Below are positions 1 through 6,620 of a DNA stretch of 7,739 nucleotides, one piece after another. The notes under the pieces are model-generated. The model made no database searches. It was not told where the DNA came from and saw nothing but the letters and a program-made list of their open reading frames with translations. Origin of the DNA: Betaproteobacteria bacterium (GTDB lineage: Bacteria; Pseudomonadota; Gammaproteobacteria; Burkholderiales; Rhodocyclaceae). The stretch spans positions 1 to 7,739 of the forward strand of contig JAGWUW010000116.1 in assembly GCA_028868235.1 (NCBI GenBank). The letters run 5' to 3'. The stretch's first letter is position 1; every line of letters begins with the position of its first letter. The position numbers were made by a program, and so were the translations under genes.

Positions 1-286
1 GGTTGAAATAGTTCAGGAATACTAAGCGGCCTATCCCTTTGTGGAATTTGTCTCTCGGAAGAAGCAGCTTCTTGAAACGATTAAAATTGTCGTCCGTAAA
101 CCCATCGCCGTTATCCGAGACGGTGACTTTCAGCGTCTCAGGCTTGTCAAATGCCTGGACGTCAATCTCGATGGACACCTCGGTGGCGCCTGCATCCAGG
201 GCGTTCGCCAACGCCTCGAAGTAGACCAGCGTCAACGACGGATTGGGGAAAAACAGCCTGATTGCACCAGCGGTTTCAATGTCCAT
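1..286 (-). CDS. GHKL-fold ATPase, N-terminal part (cut by window edge)
   Basis: Only the first 95 codons lie in the window; the frame is open at base 2. The visible part carries the three ATP-binding motifs of the GHKL superfamily (gyrase B, Hsp90, histidine kinase, MutL). The N box is FEALANALDAGATEV (residues 23-37, with E24, N28 and D31). The G1 box is SDNGDGF (57-63). The G2-type turn is HKGIGRLVF (82-90). An N box this close to the N-terminus, with no sensor region before it, resembles Hsp90/MutL/MORC-like proteins more than two-component kinases. The ATG at 286 overlaps the last 11 nt of the upstream AlbA_2 gene, which suggests translational coupling. The function is unknown. By family it should bind and perhaps hydrolyse ATP, with dimerisation or effector domains beyond the edge. 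The fold call is fairly secure; any role in defence is inferred from context. Confidence 0.78.
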   Translation of the reverse strand, partial: MDIETAGAIRLFFPNPSLTLVYFEALANALDAGATEVSIEIDVQAFDKPETLKVTVSDNGDGFTDDNFNRFKKLLLPRDKFHKGIGRLVFLNYFN

Positions 287-2141
287 GTTCGTCCCCAGGC
301 TTGGCTGCGGCCTGCTCGCGCAGCAGCTTAAGCTGGATGCCGGCGTCCGTGAGAACATAGCGCTGCTGCGACGAGCGTGGCTTGTCGGGAATGGTCGGGC
401 GCAGTACACCGCCGGATAGGAGCGGCTTCATGTGAGCGGCCACGAAGTGCGGGCGCTGACTGTAGCCGGCGTGAGCCATCAGTTCCGCCAGCGAACGCGG
501 GACATCGGCGAAGTCGACGATGCGCCATTGCACCTCCGTCAACCGATCAAGTGACCGATCAAGTCCGGCATGTCCTGACGCCACTTGTTCGGTCACTTGA
601 TCGGAAGTGCCTGCCGCTCCCATGTCCGTACCAGGCGCTGGATCTTCGCGGGTATTCTCGGCCGCCTCGTTGGCGAAGCGCGTGCGAAGGTGAGGCACCA
701 AGCGCCAAGTGTGGGCCGCTTCGCCCAGCGGTTCCGTCAGCACTTGCACCGTCAGGCGTTGCGCCAGCTCCAGCGCCTGCGCGCCAGTGAGGCCGGTCAG
801 TGCCTTTATATCAGCAATATCGACCTGGCCGTTGCGCACAAGGAAAGCGAACACTGCGGCCTCGTGCTCGGACAAGTGCGCGCCCAAGCTTGCCTGCGCC
901 AGAAGCTGGGCTTCGGTAATGAGCTTTACCTTGCATAAGCGCAGCCGGAAGCTCTTTTCAGCCCTATGGTTCTCGATCACGGGCGGCAGGTAACCCAATT
1001 TGCGCCAGCCGTCGAAGATGGCGCGCACGCCGGTTCCGCCCTGATCTGAAAGGCCAATGCGCCGAAATGCATTGACGATGCTGGGATTGCGAACCTCTTT
1101 GTCGCCCGGATCGAGCAGCTGCTCGCGCGAGGCAAAGGCGTCGCCAGGGTTGAAGAATTCGGTTTGGTCACGGAAAAAGCGGATGACCGGAACGCGGGTA
1201 GTATCGCCGAAATCCTGATGGATCAGCAGATTTATAGCCGCTTCACGGAAGGAAATGTAGTCGGGCGGATCGTCATCGCGCCGCAGTGTGGTCGCGTCCA
1301 CGGCGAAGGGGCGTTCACTGTGGCGATAGTAGAACTCCACGATAGCCTGCCAGGCCTTGATAAGGTTGTCTTCCACGGAAAGGCGGTCGGCCCAACGCAC
1401 GGTGGAGTCATATTCGGTGCTGGCATTGCGGTAGAGCTGTATGTCTGTGACCATGCGCGGCAGCACCTGTCGGACATACTCGCCGCTGCCCAGAACTAGG
1501 ATGGCGGCGCGGGTAGGACGAAGCACACCCCCTTGTTCGACCAGAAAACCCCAATTCCGTAAGAATGTGGTATCATCTGCGGCAGTGTCTTTGCCGGGAT
1601 TGCTGGCGTCAAAGCGCGCACGATACCAGCGCACAGAGGTGTCATCGAAACAGCGAGTGATGTCCACGTCCAGCGTATCAGCATCGTAGCGGATGCTCGA
1701 TGCGTCGCGCATGAAGCGCATCAGCTCGTCGCCCGTGCACGTATCGTCACGACCGCCACGGCGGACGTAGGCCTTTTTGGGGTTCCCGTCGATGTACACT
1801 GGCTTCTGTTGTCGAGTGGCTTCGGGGACGTAGAAGGCCAGCACAATGCCTTCTGGCAAATCATGCTTCTTTGGCTCGATCGGCAGGAGAACGCTGACCT
1901 TGTTGGTATCACGTACCTGGCCGAGGAAGGTGTTTTGCATCTGATCGGCGTCGGTCACGCCGGTGACGGCAAATTTGCCGTTTGCCTGCTTGACGCCGAA
2001 CACCAAGTGCCCACCATCTGTATTGGCGAAGGCGCTGACAGTCGACAGTGCGTCCTTGGGCACGGCCCAGGTGGCTTCCTTGAATTCAATGTCGTTCCAT
2101 TCAATGGATTGGAGTGTGGCGAGCAATTCGTCCTTGGTCAT
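276..2141 (-). CDS. AlbA_2 (Schlafen-type) / RecG-C-like putative regulator with winged-helix C-terminus
   Basis: A 621-residue protein. Residues about 10-145 form an AlbA_2 domain: DIEFKEA (18-23), the FANTDGGHLVFGV core (38-50) and YVRRGGRDD (125-133). Residues about 290-390 match the HATPase_c_4 / RecG-C-like module usual in these proteins: FREAAINLLIHQDF (298-311), FFNPGDAF (329-336), RNPSIVNAFRRIG (351-363) and GGTG (368-371). A winged helix follows (about 422-470), then a low-complexity linker containing DQVTEQV (514-520), and a second winged helix similar to Fic-type C-termini (about 534-605). This is the usual layout of COG2865-like 'putative transcriptional regulators'. It starts 4 nt after the brxC stop and overlaps the GHKL gene by 11 nt. 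Such proteins are commonly annotated as ATP-binding or DNA-binding regulators, but their biochemistry is poorly defined. In this operon it could be a regulator or a nucleic-acid-binding effector. The domain assignment is strong and the role is inference. Confidence 0.87.
   Translation of the reverse strand: MTKDELLATLQSIEWNDIEFKEATWAVPKDALSTVSAFANTDGGHLVFGVKQANGKFAVTGVTDADQMQNTFLGQVRDTNKVSVLLPIEPKKHDLPEGIVLAFYVPEATRQQKPVYIDGNPKKAYVRRGGRDDTCTGDELMRFMRDASSIRYDADTLDVDITRCFDDTSVRWYRARFDASNPGKDTAADDTTFLRNWGFLVEQGGVLRPTRAAILVLGSGEYVRQVLPRMVTDIQLYRNASTEYDSTVRWADRLSVEDNLIKAWQAIVEFYYRHSERPFAVDATTLRRDDDPPDYISFREAAINLLIHQDFGDTTRVPVIRFFRDQTEFFNPGDAFASREQLLDPGDKEVRNPSIVNAFRRIGLSDQGGTGVRAIFDGWRKLGYLPPVIENHRAEKSFRLRLCKVKLITEAQLLAQASLGAHLSEHEAAVFAFLVRNGQVDIADIKALTGLTGAQALELAQRLTVQVLTEPLGEAAHTWRLVPHLRTRFANEAAENTREDPAPGTDMGAAGTSDQVTEQVASGHAGLDRSLDRLTEVQWRIVDFADVPRSLAELMAHAGYSQRPHFVAAHMKPLLSGGVLRPTIPDKPRSSQQRYVLTDAGIQLKLLREQAAAKPGDEHGH
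543..604. repeat. Near-perfect 22-bp inverted repeat inside the AlbA_2 gene
   Basis: The left arm is 543-564 and the right arm 583-604. They match at 21 of 22 positions as reverse complements (one mismatch, at 559), around an 18-bp loop at 565-582. Each arm is itself built from a short direct repeat, CGATCAAGTGAC followed by CGATCAAGT. Read on the coding strand, the right arm encodes DQVTEQV (514-520) and the left arm encodes LDRSLDRL (527-534), so one repeat unit is used in both orientations within one reading frame. It lies in the linker between the two winged-helix regions. The transcript could form a long hairpin here. Repetitive linkers of the DQVTDQV kind are common in this protein family; an inverted copy is not something I expect. 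Confidence 0.9.
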
Positions 2142-2145
2142 GGCG

Positions 2146-5100
2146 TCACTCGATCACGAACCGGAGCTTTGTGGCGTCCTTGCCCTTGCCTCGCTCGGTG
2201 ATAAGCGCGTCGAACCTCTTGCGCAGTTCATCGGGCATGGCGGGGGAGCCTCCTTGCAACAAGGCCTGGCGCAGTTCGTCCGTTTTGACCGTGATCTTCT
2301 CCAGCCCGGAAAGCGCTTCTTGCACGGCGTTGGCGAACTCGGTTGTGACAGGATCTGGCAGCTTGCGTGCGGCCAGGAAGGCGTCGATCAGCACCTTCGA
2401 TGCTGGCGGCAGCAGACCCAGGCTGTCTTGCGTGAATGGGTCTTCCAGATTCTCAAGCAAGGTCTGCTGCCAGTTGGCCTGCAACTGATCCAGATCTTCA
2501 TCCAGCTTGTTCAGGCGACTGGCAGCAGGCAACAGTTCCAATTGCTCGGCTGACGGCCGGAATTGGCAATAGGGGCACACCGGGGTTCTGAGCAGCGTCG
2601 GCTCGTCCAGCGCGGAGCAGCTCTTCAGACCGTTGAGCACGTCCTCGAAACCGGTGAGCTGACTGGTTGGCATAAGCGAAACGCCTGCAAGCACCCGCAG
2701 CGACAACAAACGGTCGTCGCGGCGGAGCGCATTGCGCGTCTTTTCTTCGGCGACGCCGAGTCGCGCTTTGCTGTGGCTGGCGATATAAGCGGTGACATAA
2801 TCCTTCTTAAGTCCGGCGAGAGCTTGACGTCCGTCCCCGAGGATGGCCGCGGCACGCTCCGCTGTGCGGTCCTCCGCCAGTTTGTCGAACAAGGCTTTGC
2901 GCGTCGCTTCGGCCTGCCTCACCCAATCGTGATCGGGCTGCAAAATCATCTCCGCCTGCGACAGATATGATGCGGCGCCGCCCAATTCTCCAACCAGTTC
3001 CAGCAAACGCTCGACACCGGCGAGTACCTCCAGATTCTTCTTCTGGATGTCGATGTCTTCTTGGGTCGTGCGCAGGTTCTTGAGCTTGCCGACGGTGTTG
3101 TAAGGCGACAAGGATTCTGTGAATTTTTTCAGTGCATCAAGCCGCGCGTACCAATCTTTGGCTTCTTCCTCGCGCAGCAGGTTCTGGCCCCAGAAGGTGA
3201 GCTTGCCCTGCTGGAGATCAGAGCCTGCCTTGAGCACGCGCGGCACTAGAGCGCTAATCCGCTCCTGCAATGCAATGACCGGTTCGGTATCGCCTTGGCT
3301 GGCCTTCTGGGCCAGGCCGGATGGCAGGTCGAGCAACTCGAACAGCGCACGCAGCACCGCGAGGTTGATTTCCTTGGGCGCCTCGATGTGCTTGAACTGC
3401 CTAAGCTCATCGAGCGAGCGTTCAGCCAGCAGGGCGAGCTTGCCGGAGTCAATTTTGTCGCCGGTGATCGAGAGCACGATGTCGCCGGAATAGGCCAGTA
3501 CGCCCAACACGACGACCAGCAGGTCCGGCTCAAGCCGGTGCTTGGTGGGGAAGAAATACTCAACATCGGTCGCGCCGGTGACGAGTTCATTGCGGTTGAG
3601 CACCTGCCCGTGGCCCTTGGCATTGAGGCGGTTCAGCACCTCCTGCGCGTAGCGGGAACCTGCTGGATCGATACGTTCGCCGTCGAGCATTTCCAACGCA
3701 TCAAGCACCGCCGTAGCATCCTTGGTGCGCGTGCCTCCAGCCAACGCACGCAGTGTACTTGCGATTAGGGATTTGCGGTTGGCCTCTGTGACGAGCACTG
3801 GAAACTTGGGGTATTCGGGCGCGATGTCGACGAAATGCTGGGACAAAACCAAGCCCGACACAATGTTCACAATGTCGCGGAAGTTGATCCTTTCCTCTGG
3901 CCCCAAGCGCGCGCGGTCACGCAATGACACACCCTTGGCCCAGTCTTGCAGCGTCTTGGCTTTGCCTTGATAGGTGACTTCAAACGCGGTCAGCTGTTTT
4001 TCTTGCAACCACTTGCTCATAGCCCGCAAGGCATCCTGCGCCTTGGACTGATAGACCGCCTTTGCGCCCCCGCTGGCGGTCGAGCCCAGGTCAAGCGAGG
4101 CAGCATATTGGGACAGGAAGCGCCGGTAGTCCTCGTCAAGCGCCTTCAATCGGAAGAACACTTCATCCGGACGTTGCGAATCGCTGAAGCGCGGCTTGTC
4201 GAAAGGCTGAACGAAGTAGATGTAGAAATCGCGTTCGGGCTGCGCGGTAGGGCGATCGTTCGGCGCTCCGAAGAACAAATAGCCGAGGCGTTCGACGCGA
4301 TTCTCCTGCCATTCGATCTGATATTGCCAGATCTGGAAGCCAGGGTAGCGAAGGTCGTCGCTGCACTCCATTAGTGCCTTGATGGCGCTATAATAGGCCC
4401 GGTCGAGAGCATCGTCGGACAATGCTTCGGCGCGTTTATCGATCTGGGCGTCATAATCGACGTCCTTTTTGAGATCGAGGTAATACTGTTCCGTGTCGGC
4501 GGCCTTGGAGATAAACTGGCCATTGACCGTCTTTAGCACCTCGCGCATCACTGTCTGAACCATCGACAGCAAGTTCTCGGCGGGTTCGCCGGGCATATCG
4601 CCCACACCAGGCTGGAACAGGCACAAGGAGTCGCGCAGCTCTGCGGCAGTGGGGCCAATCGGGACATGGATGTCGCCGCCGGTGGTCAAGCGATGTACAG
4701 CCAGGCCGTTGATGACGCGAAGCGCCATGGGCTTGTAAGCTGGCCGCGTGAATGCCTGCTGGATGCGAGATTCTAGGACTTCAGAGACACGCAAGACCTC
4801 CTTGATGTTGGGGTCAGCCCGCAGCACTTGGTTGCTCTTGACCGTATTCCAGAAGCTTTCATAGGCGATCAGTTGCGGACGATCAGTCGGCACGTCCTGT
4901 TCCAGAATGGCCTGCATCGCAGCTTCAATGGTCTTAAGCGCACCACGCTTCTCGGTGAAATGAATCTGCTCGAATGTCTTTAGGTAGTCTGGATGTACCG
5001 GAAATAAGCGAACATACTCGTCAATACGTTCATTCATTGAGCCGTAAAATTTAGCAAATGGCTTCAGATATTCACGAATTTTATTTTGCTGATCAGCAGA

Positions 5101-5886
5101 CTTTTTGAGAAGGCGAGCGGAGACCACGAAGCTCACATCTTGGCGGTCGATCAGGATCTGCGTGAAGCGTTCGTTTACTCGGCGGATGCTGTCGGCCACG
5201 TGCTGGAAACGTCCGCTATCGAAGATGGCTTCCTGTACGCCCGCAACAAAACGGAATTTCAGATGCTTGGCTACCTCGCCGATCTGACGCAAGATGGCGA
5301 GGTCGAGCACCAGTTCGTGATCACGGCGCGATTGCAGGTACTCGAGGAACTCGTCCACCACGAGTAGCAGCCCCTGGTCGGGGAACTTCTCGCCAAAGGC
5401 GGTCATCATCTCCTCGAAGGAGTCCTTGTTGTTCAGTTCCTGATCGGCGCGCGGGAAAGTGAAATCGACGCCAAGCTTCTTGAGGAAGCGCTCAATCTGC
5501 TGCGTGATGATCTGACGCAGCGGCATTTCAAGGCCGCCGACTTCAATGCGCAGCACCTGGAATCGCCCCGCTATGGACGCGACGGCATCCACCACTTTTG
5601 GGTGACGGATCATCGGCACATACGCTGCGTCCTCGGCCACCAGCGATAGCACCGACATCAGGTGCGATTTGCCGGTGCCATAGTTACCGACAATGAGCAC
5701 ACCCTTGTGATCGACCGCTTCGTCAAAGCTGAGCTGCGGCACCATGAGCGTGGCAATGCGTTCGGCCATGTCATCGGAAATGACAAAGGTCGAAACTAGC
5801 TTCTTGGCTTCATCGGGACGGTCAGCGTCGAGAAGTTGTACAACCGACTCGATCTGCTCGAACTGAATAAGATCCTTGTACTTCAT
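2146..5886 (-). CDS. brxC: BREX ATPase BrxC / PglY-like (DUF6079 family)
   Basis: A 1246-residue protein, the usual size of BrxC/PglY. The N-terminal AAA+-like ATPase has a canonical Walker A, GNYGTGKS (67-74, K73), and Walker B, LLLVVDEF (173-180, D178-E179), followed by a sensor-like strand FRFVAGVQEA (211-220). The opening MKYKDLIQFEQIESVVQL is typical of DUF6079 proteins in BREX loci. The C-terminal third is helical and charged, and contains one CPYC pair (C1104, C1107). In BREX systems this large ATPase works with the methyltransferase PglX and the phosphatase-like PglZ to block phage replication without cutting DNA; its own activity is not fully defined. The gene lies 21 nt after brxF and 4 nt before the AlbA_2 gene. 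The ribosome binding site is weak (GGA about 12 nt upstream), which may mean coupling to brxF. Family assignment is strong; type 3 is inferred from the preceding brxF-like gene. Confidence 0.88.
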   Translation of the reverse strand: MKYKDLIQFEQIESVVQLLDADRPDEAKKLVSTFVISDDMAERIATLMVPQLSFDEAVDHKGVLIVGNYGTGKSHLMSVLSLVAEDAAYVPMIRHPKVVDAVASIAGRFQVLRIEVGGLEMPLRQIITQQIERFLKKLGVDFTFPRADQELNNKDSFEEMMTAFGEKFPDQGLLLVVDEFLEYLQSRRDHELVLDLAILRQIGEVAKHLKFRFVAGVQEAIFDSGRFQHVADSIRRVNERFTQILIDRQDVSFVVSARLLKKSADQQNKIREYLKPFAKFYGSMNERIDEYVRLFPVHPDYLKTFEQIHFTEKRGALKTIEAAMQAILEQDVPTDRPQLIAYESFWNTVKSNQVLRADPNIKEVLRVSEVLESRIQQAFTRPAYKPMALRVINGLAVHRLTTGGDIHVPIGPTAAELRDSLCLFQPGVGDMPGEPAENLLSMVQTVMREVLKTVNGQFISKAADTEQYYLDLKKDVDYDAQIDKRAEALSDDALDRAYYSAIKALMECSDDLRYPGFQIWQYQIEWQENRVERLGYLFFGAPNDRPTAQPERDFYIYFVQPFDKPRFSDSQRPDEVFFRLKALDEDYRRFLSQYAASLDLGSTASGGAKAVYQSKAQDALRAMSKWLQEKQLTAFEVTYQGKAKTLQDWAKGVSLRDRARLGPEERINFRDIVNIVSGLVLSQHFVDIAPEYPKFPVLVTEANRKSLIASTLRALAGGTRTKDATAVLDALEMLDGERIDPAGSRYAQEVLNRLNAKGHGQVLNRNELVTGATDVEYFFPTKHRLEPDLLVVVLGVLAYSGDIVLSITGDKIDSGKLALLAERSLDELRQFKHIEAPKEINLAVLRALFELLDLPSGLAQKASQGDTEPVIALQERISALVPRVLKAGSDLQQGKLTFWGQNLLREEEAKDWYARLDALKKFTESLSPYNTVGKLKNLRTTQEDIDIQKKNLEVLAGVERLLELVGELGGAASYLSQAEMILQPDHDWVRQAEATRKALFDKLAEDRTAERAAAILGDGRQALAGLKKDYVTAYIASHSKARLGVAEEKTRNALRRDDRLLSLRVLAGVSLMPTSQLTGFEDVLNGLKSCSALDEPTLLRTPVCPYCQFRPSAEQLELLPAASRLNKLDEDLDQLQANWQQTLLENLEDPFTQDSLGLLPPASKVLIDAFLAARKLPDPVTTEFANAVQEALSGLEKITVKTDELRQALLQGGSPAMPDELRKRFDALITERGKGKDATKLRFVIE

Positions 5887-5907
5887 ATTTATGATCGTCC
5901 AGTTCCG

Positions 5908-6405
5908 TTATGGGCGTTGCGCTGTTTCAAAGACGACGATGCCGTCACGACTGTAGTCGCGGTGTTCGGGGTGCCCCATGCCGGCGTATGTCAACCGATC
6001 ATTGCGCAATTCTCCCGGCCATACTGCGATGACCCGACGTGAGTGTGCCAGAAGTCTAGTGACGTTGAGCGGATTGACCTTCAGGCTGGGCTCAAAAAGC
6101 ACTTCTAGATTGTCGAGCAGCAGCGGAGAGTTGCCGCCCACGTTATCAGTGAGTTCGCGTAGCAGTTCGGTCGTCGCGAAACCGCGATTGCTGACGGGCG
6201 TGACGGCTAGCCGGCGTCCCAGCGTCACGCCAACATTGAGTGGCTCAACCTTCAACCGTCGCGCCAATGCGCGAAGGAGGCGCGTTTTGCCACTTCTGCC
6301 GACTAGCAGAATCAGCTTGCTCTGAAGGTCGTTGATATCCCCGATCAGCTGTTCAAGCGCAGGAAGGTTGGCCACCCCTGCTGACGATGCGAACGCATAG
6401 GTCAT
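5908..6405 (-). CDS. brxF: Small P-loop protein BrxF (BREX type 3)
   Basis: A 165-residue P-loop protein directly upstream of brxC, the position and size of BrxF in type 3 BREX. The strand and nucleotide loop are KLILLVGRSGKTRLLRAL (30-47). The glycine-rich loop is compact: G36-R-S-G39-K40-T41 has two residues between the glycines, where the classic Walker A has four. A Walker B-like strand, SPLLLDNLEVLF (93-104, D98), and a later strand, VIAVWPG (125-131), complete a short P-loop NTPase core with little else. The frame is open upstream to 6495, but the ATG at 6405 is preferred. It sits in an ATGA overlap with the HTH gene and follows an AGGGGAA ribosome binding site at 6409-6415, whereas the extra 30 residues would overlap the HTH gene and are arginine-rich. 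The BrxF call rests on recognition of the family plus synteny; another small AAA protein is possible. Confidence 0.8.
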   Translation of the reverse strand: MTYAFASSAGVANLPALEQLIGDINDLQSKLILLVGRSGKTRLLRALARRLKVEPLNVGVTLGRRLAVTPVSNRGFATTELLRELTDNVGGNSPLLLDNLEVLFEPSLKVNPLNVTRLLAHSRRVIAVWPGELRNDRLTYAGMGHPEHRDYSRDGIVVFETAQRP

Positions 6406-6620
6406 TGCTTCCCCTCGTCCAGCACGGGCTTGCCTTCCTGTGCGTCGATACGAGCGGCGATCCATCGTTCCAACTCGGCGCGGCGGAAGCGCCATACACC
6501 GCCTAGCTTGAAAGCCGGAATTTTGCCGTTGGCCGCAAGGCGATAGACCGTGCGCCGACCTGCTTTGAGGTAGACGGCAACTTCCTCGATGGTGAGGATC
6601 TCACCGGATTGCTCAACCAT
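6402..6620 (-). CDS. Excisionase-family helix-turn-helix protein, first gene of the operon
   Basis: A 72-residue protein that is almost entirely one MerR-like/excisionase (TIGR01764-type) winged helix-turn-helix. Residues 9-19, LTIEEVAVYLK, form the first helix; GRRTVYRLAANG (21-32) is the turn and recognition helix; KIPAFKLGGVWRFRR (33-47) is the wing; and AELERWI (48-54) is the closing helix. Its stop overlaps the brxF start by 4 nt (ATGA), so it is part of the operon. No strong ribosome binding site precedes the ATG at 6620. Known relatives are transcription regulators or recombination directionality factors. As the promoter-proximal gene of a defence operon with tandem repeats just upstream, an autoregulator is the more likely role, but no regulatory evidence exists beyond that arrangement. 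Confidence 0.86.
   Translation of the reverse strand: MVEQSGEILTIEEVAVYLKAGRRTVYRLAANGKIPAFKLGGVWRFRRAELERWIAARIDAQEGKPVLDEGKQ
6409..6415 (-). promoter_or_regulatory. Ribosome binding site of brxF
   Basis: AGGGGAA on the coding strand, 3 nt before the ATG at 6405 (GAGGGG gives a 5-nt spacing). It lies inside the last codons of the HTH gene. It favours the 165-residue start over the in-frame start 90 nt upstream. Confidence 0.65.

Follow-up and report, generated by a model that had tools for sequence, protein, structure and literature searches.

A type 3 BREX operon head carrying a Schlafen-type gene and the start of a gene for a predicted MORC-like ATPase-nuclease

In type 3 BREX (bacteriophage exclusion; gene set brxF, brxC, pglXI, brxHII, pglZ and brxA), brxC is followed by the methyltransferase gene pglXI. 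What is to be made of an operon that begins in this way but continues with other genes? This question is raised by a contig of Betaproteobacteria bacterium (Rhodocyclaceae; GCA_028868235.1, contig JAGWUW010000116.1), which was analysed over its entire length of 7,739 bases (G000:C32; hereafter "the window"). The window shares a helix-turn-helix (HTH) gene, brxF and brxC with type 3 BREX, but differs in having two extra genes behind brxC, one for an AlbA_2 protein and one for a GHKL ATPase, and the contig end falls inside the latter. The initial annotation offered two possibilities, an accessory module embedded in BREX-3 or a BREX-derived system without the modification arm. Most likely, what the window holds is the beginning of a BREX-3 operon that includes an accessory pair; the modification arm would then lie outside the window. 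On balance, we consider it probable that the operon continues with pglXI, brxHII and pglZ, that the AlbA_2 protein is of the Schlafen type, and that the cut GHKL gene encodes a MORC-like ATPase with a PD-(D/E)XK nuclease end, which would back up BREX as an exchangeable effector.

The BREX-3 core in related loci

An alignment of brxC was scanned against GTDB genome contigs, which yielded 156 relatives; the counts given below rest on the best 80 of these 156 (loci are designated Lnnn and genomes Gnnn). The GHKL gene is present in 10 of the 80 brxC loci (L006, L009, L023, L026, L031, L032, L047, L058, L060 and L062). All ten also possess an AlbA_2 gene, pglXI and brxHII (whole or starting), and pglZ is reached in five of them, the remaining five loci ending earlier. 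In L006, which comes from Rhizobium freirei PRF 81, the PADLOC family models PglX|PglXI and BrxHI|BrxHII gave 1360 and 1474 bits, respectively. In 60 brxC loci, the sequence extends 9 kb or more past brxC; among these, pglXI was matched in all 60, brxHII in 58 and pglZ in 49, and the relatives keep the order brxF-brxC-...-pglXI-brxHII-pglZ. As pglXI and brxHII start behind brxC in each of the GHKL-bearing relatives, the window is best read as BREX-3 with its modification arm, and the first of the two possibilities, the embedded accessory module, is the one supported.

The loss of the modification arm is, correspondingly, very improbable. A pglXI query found no match in the window's own assembly, and a brxHII query found there only weak matches to other helicases. 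However, this assembly (3.18 Mb, 646 contigs, 70% complete) also lacks the rest of the GHKL gene (~534 codons), for which a full-length relative used as query retrieved only the window fragment, so that the absence of pglXI and brxHII, whose places lie past the contig end together with that of pglZ, is read as an assembly gap.

The two extra genes are variably present. The plasmid relatives from Roseomonas mucosa and Roseicitreum antarcticum have the order brxF-brxC-AlbA_2-methyltransferase-helicase-pglZ without a GHKL gene, Leisingera thetidis possesses neither of the two, and only 35 nt separate brxC from pglXI in L085, also a plasmid relative. In L065, brxHII and pglZ are each in two pieces; the BREX-3 system of this locus may be broken or contain sequencing errors.

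In the window, five genes form one minus-strand operon in the order HTH, brxF, brxC, AlbA_2, GHKL. This order, proposed before any database search, was confirmed by family searches for all five genes, and the assignments of BrxF and DUF6079 proved well founded. The gene for the DUF6079 ATPase BrxC (positions 2146 to 5886, minus strand, 1246 aa) is full length, matching Pfam DUF6079 (PF19557) with 1874 bits over residues 1-1246 and the PADLOC model BrxC with 1854.6 bits; its score with NCBIfam BREX_BrxC (45.8 bits) is under the cut-off of 400. It is preceded by brxF (5908 to 6405, minus strand), which encodes a BREX-3 P-loop protein of 165 aa (NCBIfam NF033453, BREX_3_BrxF, 148.6 bits, cut-off 50; PADLOC BrxF, 156.2 bits). 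The HTH gene and brxF overlap by 4 nt, brxF and brxC are 21 nt apart, and the 4-nt gap between brxC and the AlbA_2 gene and the 11-nt overlap of the latter with the GHKL gene, both reported by the initial annotation, were confirmed from the sequence. The overlap is kept in all six relatives with the order AlbA_2-GHKL and the gap in four of them, extra reading frames standing in the gap of L009 and L031. As the same overlap and gap recur in relatives, the arrangement is not due to chance.

The two accessory proteins

The GHKL gene is represented in the window by its 5' part of 95 codons (positions 2 to 286, minus strand; HATPase_c, 32.8 bits, cut-off 26.4), which is 100% identical over 95 aa to L009, a locus of Pseudochelatococcus lubricantis. 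These codons already contain all ten ATPase motif residues checked (E24, N28, D58, G60, G62, F63, K83, G84, G86 and R87). The full-length relatives have ~629 aa; an S5/transducer-like domain was found behind their GHKL domain, and four C-terminal residues, E413, D481, E502 and K504 (an E-D-ExK motif), are invariant over 87 sequences of relatives. The full-length relatives are predicted to be MORC/MutL-like ATPases with a C-terminal PD-(D/E)XK end, a layout also known from paraMORC3 and VcSduA, and hence nucleases. The ATPase half is also predicted to have a MORC-like fold. Weak Pfam matches to HSDR_N/SduA_C lie outside the BREX-linked GHKL family itself.

The AlbA_2 gene (276 to 2141, minus strand) encodes a protein of 621 aa matching SLFN_AlbA_2 (PF04326, 63.1 bits), HATPase_c_4 (44 bits) and, at the C-terminus, Fic-like_C (43.7 bits). 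This protein is 62-65% identical to those encoded at the same position in two plasmid BREX-3 operons and weakly matches vertebrate Schlafens (E 0.005-0.017). It looks like a Schlafen-type protein, which is a known kind of BREX accessory. The earlier description of the pair as two ATP/DNA-binding genes thus undersells it: one is of the Schlafen type, and the other probably encodes an ATPase that, as read from the full-length relatives, is joined to a predicted nuclease.

Exchange of genes between brxC and pglXI

The order AlbA_2-GHKL occurs in six loci, whereas three have GHKL-AlbA_2, with the genes 74 nt apart in all three; in L023, the AlbA_2 gene stands behind pglXI and is only distantly related to the others (46-48% identity). 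Between two brxC clades, the GHKL proteins are 77-87% identical, whereas the BrxC proteins of these clades are 70-72% identical. The GHKL tree joins L023 and L032 (support 94/91), which the brxC data reject (approximately unbiased test, p 4e-5), and a GHKL tree constrained to keep the six HTH-type loci as one group was only marginally rejected (p 0.049), both groups having been chosen after seeing the identities. The presence of GHKL requires at least four changes on a brxC tree of 60 rows. Three loci sister to the window's brxC clade (L005, L007 and L038) carry another reading frame of 249-326 aa in the GHKL place between AlbA_2 and pglXI; that of L005 has no Pfam match.

Relatives of the GHKL protein can also be found away from BREX-3. 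In a host-order sample of 299 other genomes, four possess one at E <=1e-10 (59, 36, 31 and 31% identical), all of which keep the checked ATPase and E-D-ExK residues, Q519 being kept in one. No BREX-3 or AlbA_2 match stands beside these four in the stretch read, the left flank of L112 being shorter than 1 kb. In a phylum sample, 10 of 398 genomes (own genome included) matched at E <=1e-3, two of them (G157 and G025) with what we take to be ordinary histidine kinases, and in a class sample the only match at E <=1e-10 among 369 genomes was the own genome. The phylum and order samples together matched 13 other genomes; in 10 of these, the context was searched with type 3 gene queries, and none gave a BREX-3 match, with low sensitivity in L098 and L102, where the GHKL query also found nothing. 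Note that the close GHKL family (at least 76% identity) was sampled through brxC only.

The surroundings of these relatives differ. The gene for a GHKL-nuclease relative at L113:9043-10917 lies between genes read as pheS and pheT, and that at L114:9012-10907 lies beside a gene read as pheT, pheS not being seen upstream. The two genomes may be Neisseria or near it. Sites of this kind, next to the phenylalanyl-tRNA synthetase genes, are known in Neisseria as places where genes are exchanged. In L101, a contig starts with the codons for the final 50-60 residues of a further relative (66% identity over 50 aa), and a presumed type I restriction locus lies next to them. A GHKL family confined to BREX was considered and dropped, given the relatives without BREX-3 matches nearby. 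A phage origin of the gene is not supported either: no relative was confirmed in viral contigs (two short patterns), and none was found in phage records. In plasmids, the GHKL query gave one match of 25% coverage and the window's GHKL fragment none, and E. coli genomes contain no DNA match to the gene.

Because distant relatives occur elsewhere, the gene order is flipped in some loci and GHKL identity exceeds brxC identity between clades, the AlbA_2/GHKL pair is regarded as an exchangeable cassette, evidently swapped between BREX-3 backbones. The initial annotation had called the two genes integral to the operon. Their spacing fits this description, but their evolution does not, as the pair has been exchanged between backbones and the GHKL protein has relatives without BREX-3 nearby.

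The brxC-pglXI interval is a cargo slot. Among the 77 loci with both genes, it exceeds 300 bp in 51 and is at most 100 bp in 26; the pglXI-brxHII interval exceeds 300 bp in 17 of 64 loci. Reading frames lying in these two intervals of the 80 brxC loci and three plasmid loci were clustered, and one representative per cluster was scanned. The clusters comprise AlbA_2 proteins (26 frames), an ATPase matching PDC-M07A and HEC-01A (15), PD-T7-3-like proteins (10), DUF4276 proteins (HEC-01B; 7 and 4), SIR2 (5) and HerA-type proteins (4). All eight frames listed of the ten in the PD-T7-3-like cluster stand between brxC and pglXI. The interval counts rest on an automatic listing of the slot, in which overlong frames hid two genes, GHKL in L026 and AlbA_2 in L002, and the gene counts on a separate search. 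With single representatives that match PD-T7-3, HEC-01/PDC-M07, SIR2 and HerA-type families, the brxC-pglXI interval is marked as a place in which to seek more defence genes. A member of the PD-T7-3-like cluster, the frame at L042:13723-15081 (452 aa), matches the PADLOC model PD-T7-3 with 126 bits.

Possible function and known systems

How could such a cassette work beside BREX? PglXI methylation would mark self DNA, and the BREX-3 core would block phage replication. The GHKL protein may dimerise on ATP and encircle phage DNA like a clamp, a mechanism proposed for VcSduA and MutL-like ATPases, and its C-terminal nuclease would cut or nick the clamped DNA in parallel to BREX. The AlbA_2 protein could act as a regulator or, as a Schlafen that cuts RNA, provide a second effector. 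We assume that the GHKL nuclease works on its own, like BrxU beside type I BREX and VcSduA alone, and is not a BREX subunit.

Several observations weigh against this account. The nuclease half lies outside the window and is read from relatives only. In both fold searches, the matches listed were ATPase modules or whole Hsp90-type chains, mainly on residues 1-343, and gave nothing on residues 344-629. No nuclease family was found by Pfam in the BREX-linked GHKL members (best DUF6826, E 0.13, in one of three), nor in the distant GHKL proteins L089, L090, L091 and L094 (four of six scanned); PADLOC (PADLOC-DB 2.0.0) had no match for either of two BREX-linked members, and the C-terminal profile found no nuclease among PDB sequences (PerR, E 0.067; ferritin, E 0.5). 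None of the ten GHKL-bearing loci reaches the place of brxA, these loci and the window ending first; brxA is present in other brxC loci, which lack GHKL. Finally, AlbA_2 occurs in 10/10 GHKL-bearing loci versus 15/70 others (Fisher p 2e-6), but this tie is not significant after correction for relatedness (three independent pairs, sign test p 0.5-1).

The same association bears on the idea that AlbA_2 and GHKL form a two-gene system of their own, a sensor or regulator with a nuclease, that merely travels in BREX-3. The two genes adjoin in nine of the ten GHKL-bearing loci, in either order. Nevertheless, the 15 loci with AlbA_2 alone, the order-level GHKL relatives without an AlbA_2 match beside them, the distant type of AlbA_2 behind pglXI in L023 and the loss of significance just mentioned make this idea improbable. 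We also consider it unlikely that BREX in this clade restricts through the GHKL nuclease as one of its own working parts, a clamp of the MutL/MORC kind that would recognise PglXI methylation and cut phage DNA lacking it. Such a role would agree with the placement of the gene between brxC and pglXI, with its tight packing in all six AlbA_2-GHKL loci (the 11-nt overlap and 16-23 nt to pglXI, for the start codons chosen) and with the proposal that paraMORCs connect the recognition site to the cleavage site in restriction systems (PMC2292703). However, the GHKL relatives with 31-59% identity have no BREX-3 matches nearby, a further one, in L101, ends beside a presumed type I restriction locus, three sister loci have AlbA_2 but another frame instead of GHKL, and VcSduA defends alone (PMC12137116). 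A bolder version, to which we give just as little credence, would make the brxC-pglXI interval of proteobacterial BREX-3 a standing exchange site for whole effectors, in which the resident effector of this clade, a MORC/MutL-like clamp nuclease, would have become the BREX-3 cutting arm and would read PglXI marks to distinguish self from phage. A 2026 review (PMC12904381) continues to list the restriction mode of BREX as unknown. If the nuclease did depend on BREX methylation, this would give BREX a cutting step, though type I BREX PglZ is reported to nick DNA (PMC12205998), and would tie bacterial restriction to the MORC/MutL clamp ATPases.

The independent backup effector that we favour has counterparts among known systems. 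VcSduA, a Shedu protein with N-terminal GHKL, has the same layout (GHKL, middle domain, PD-(D/E)XK), and its ATPase was proposed to control the nuclease (PMC12137116); by that description it is a system by itself, whereas the GHKL family studied here stands inside BREX-3. We infer that the L094 subfamily includes VcSduA. ParaMORC3 (Iyer, Abhiman and Aravind 2008, PMC2292703) likewise combines GHKL, S5 and a C-terminal restriction endonuclease-fold domain with an E-D-ExK motif, but a subset of its nuclease-bearing members is described as standalone, without conserved neighbours, and no BREX link was noted in the account of it. BrxU, a type IV restriction enzyme of a type I BREX island, is also an independent second layer carried with BREX, although it is an unrelated enzyme of the GmrSD family (PMC8565348). 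For the AlbA_2 protein, the closest counterpart is the BREX accessory described as Schlafen plus histidine-kinase-like plus winged HTH, which accompanies BREX or related systems in no fewer than 1017 taxa (PMC12839542); the window's protein likewise combines AlbA_2, HATPase_c_4 and a C-terminal Fic-like domain, and no difference from that description was noted. As Schlafen, OLD-type, PD-(D/E)XK and Shedu nucleases are already listed with BREX there, the accessory principle is known. The main text of PMC12839542 contains no GHKL, MutL, HSP90, HATPase, MORC or gyrase, while its supplementary tables may list the GHKL gene. As far as our literature search shows, a MORC-like nuclease in the brxC-pglXI slot is new. 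With it, the cargo of BREX-3 gains a MORC-type ATPase that is predicted to end in a nuclease and for which PADLOC-DB 2.0.0 has no match.

The first gene of the operon (6402 to 6620, minus strand) encodes an HTH protein of 72 aa of the HTH_17/excisionase type (Pfam HTH_17, 69.8 bits, cut-off 27). A match to this HTH is present in 19 of the 80 brxC loci, and a WYL protein match, anywhere in the locus, in 43. A methylation-associated defence system (MADS) was rejected: the HTH protein alone resembles mad1 (NCBIfam MADS1, 73 bits, under the cut-off of 80; PADLOC mad1, 37.9 bits), and no other window gene matched the PADLOC mad models at E 0.001. We take such a system to be marked by a mad1-type HTH gene followed by the other mad genes. 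Divergently from the operon, a gene start that runs off the contig (7078 to 7737, plus strand) has no Pfam match at E 0.001; presumably it is DUF932-like. Among 83 loci, its homologues are found ~3 kb upstream of the operon in L031 (90% identical) and, as a piece of 137 aa (72% identical), upstream in L085, which hints at a shared island.

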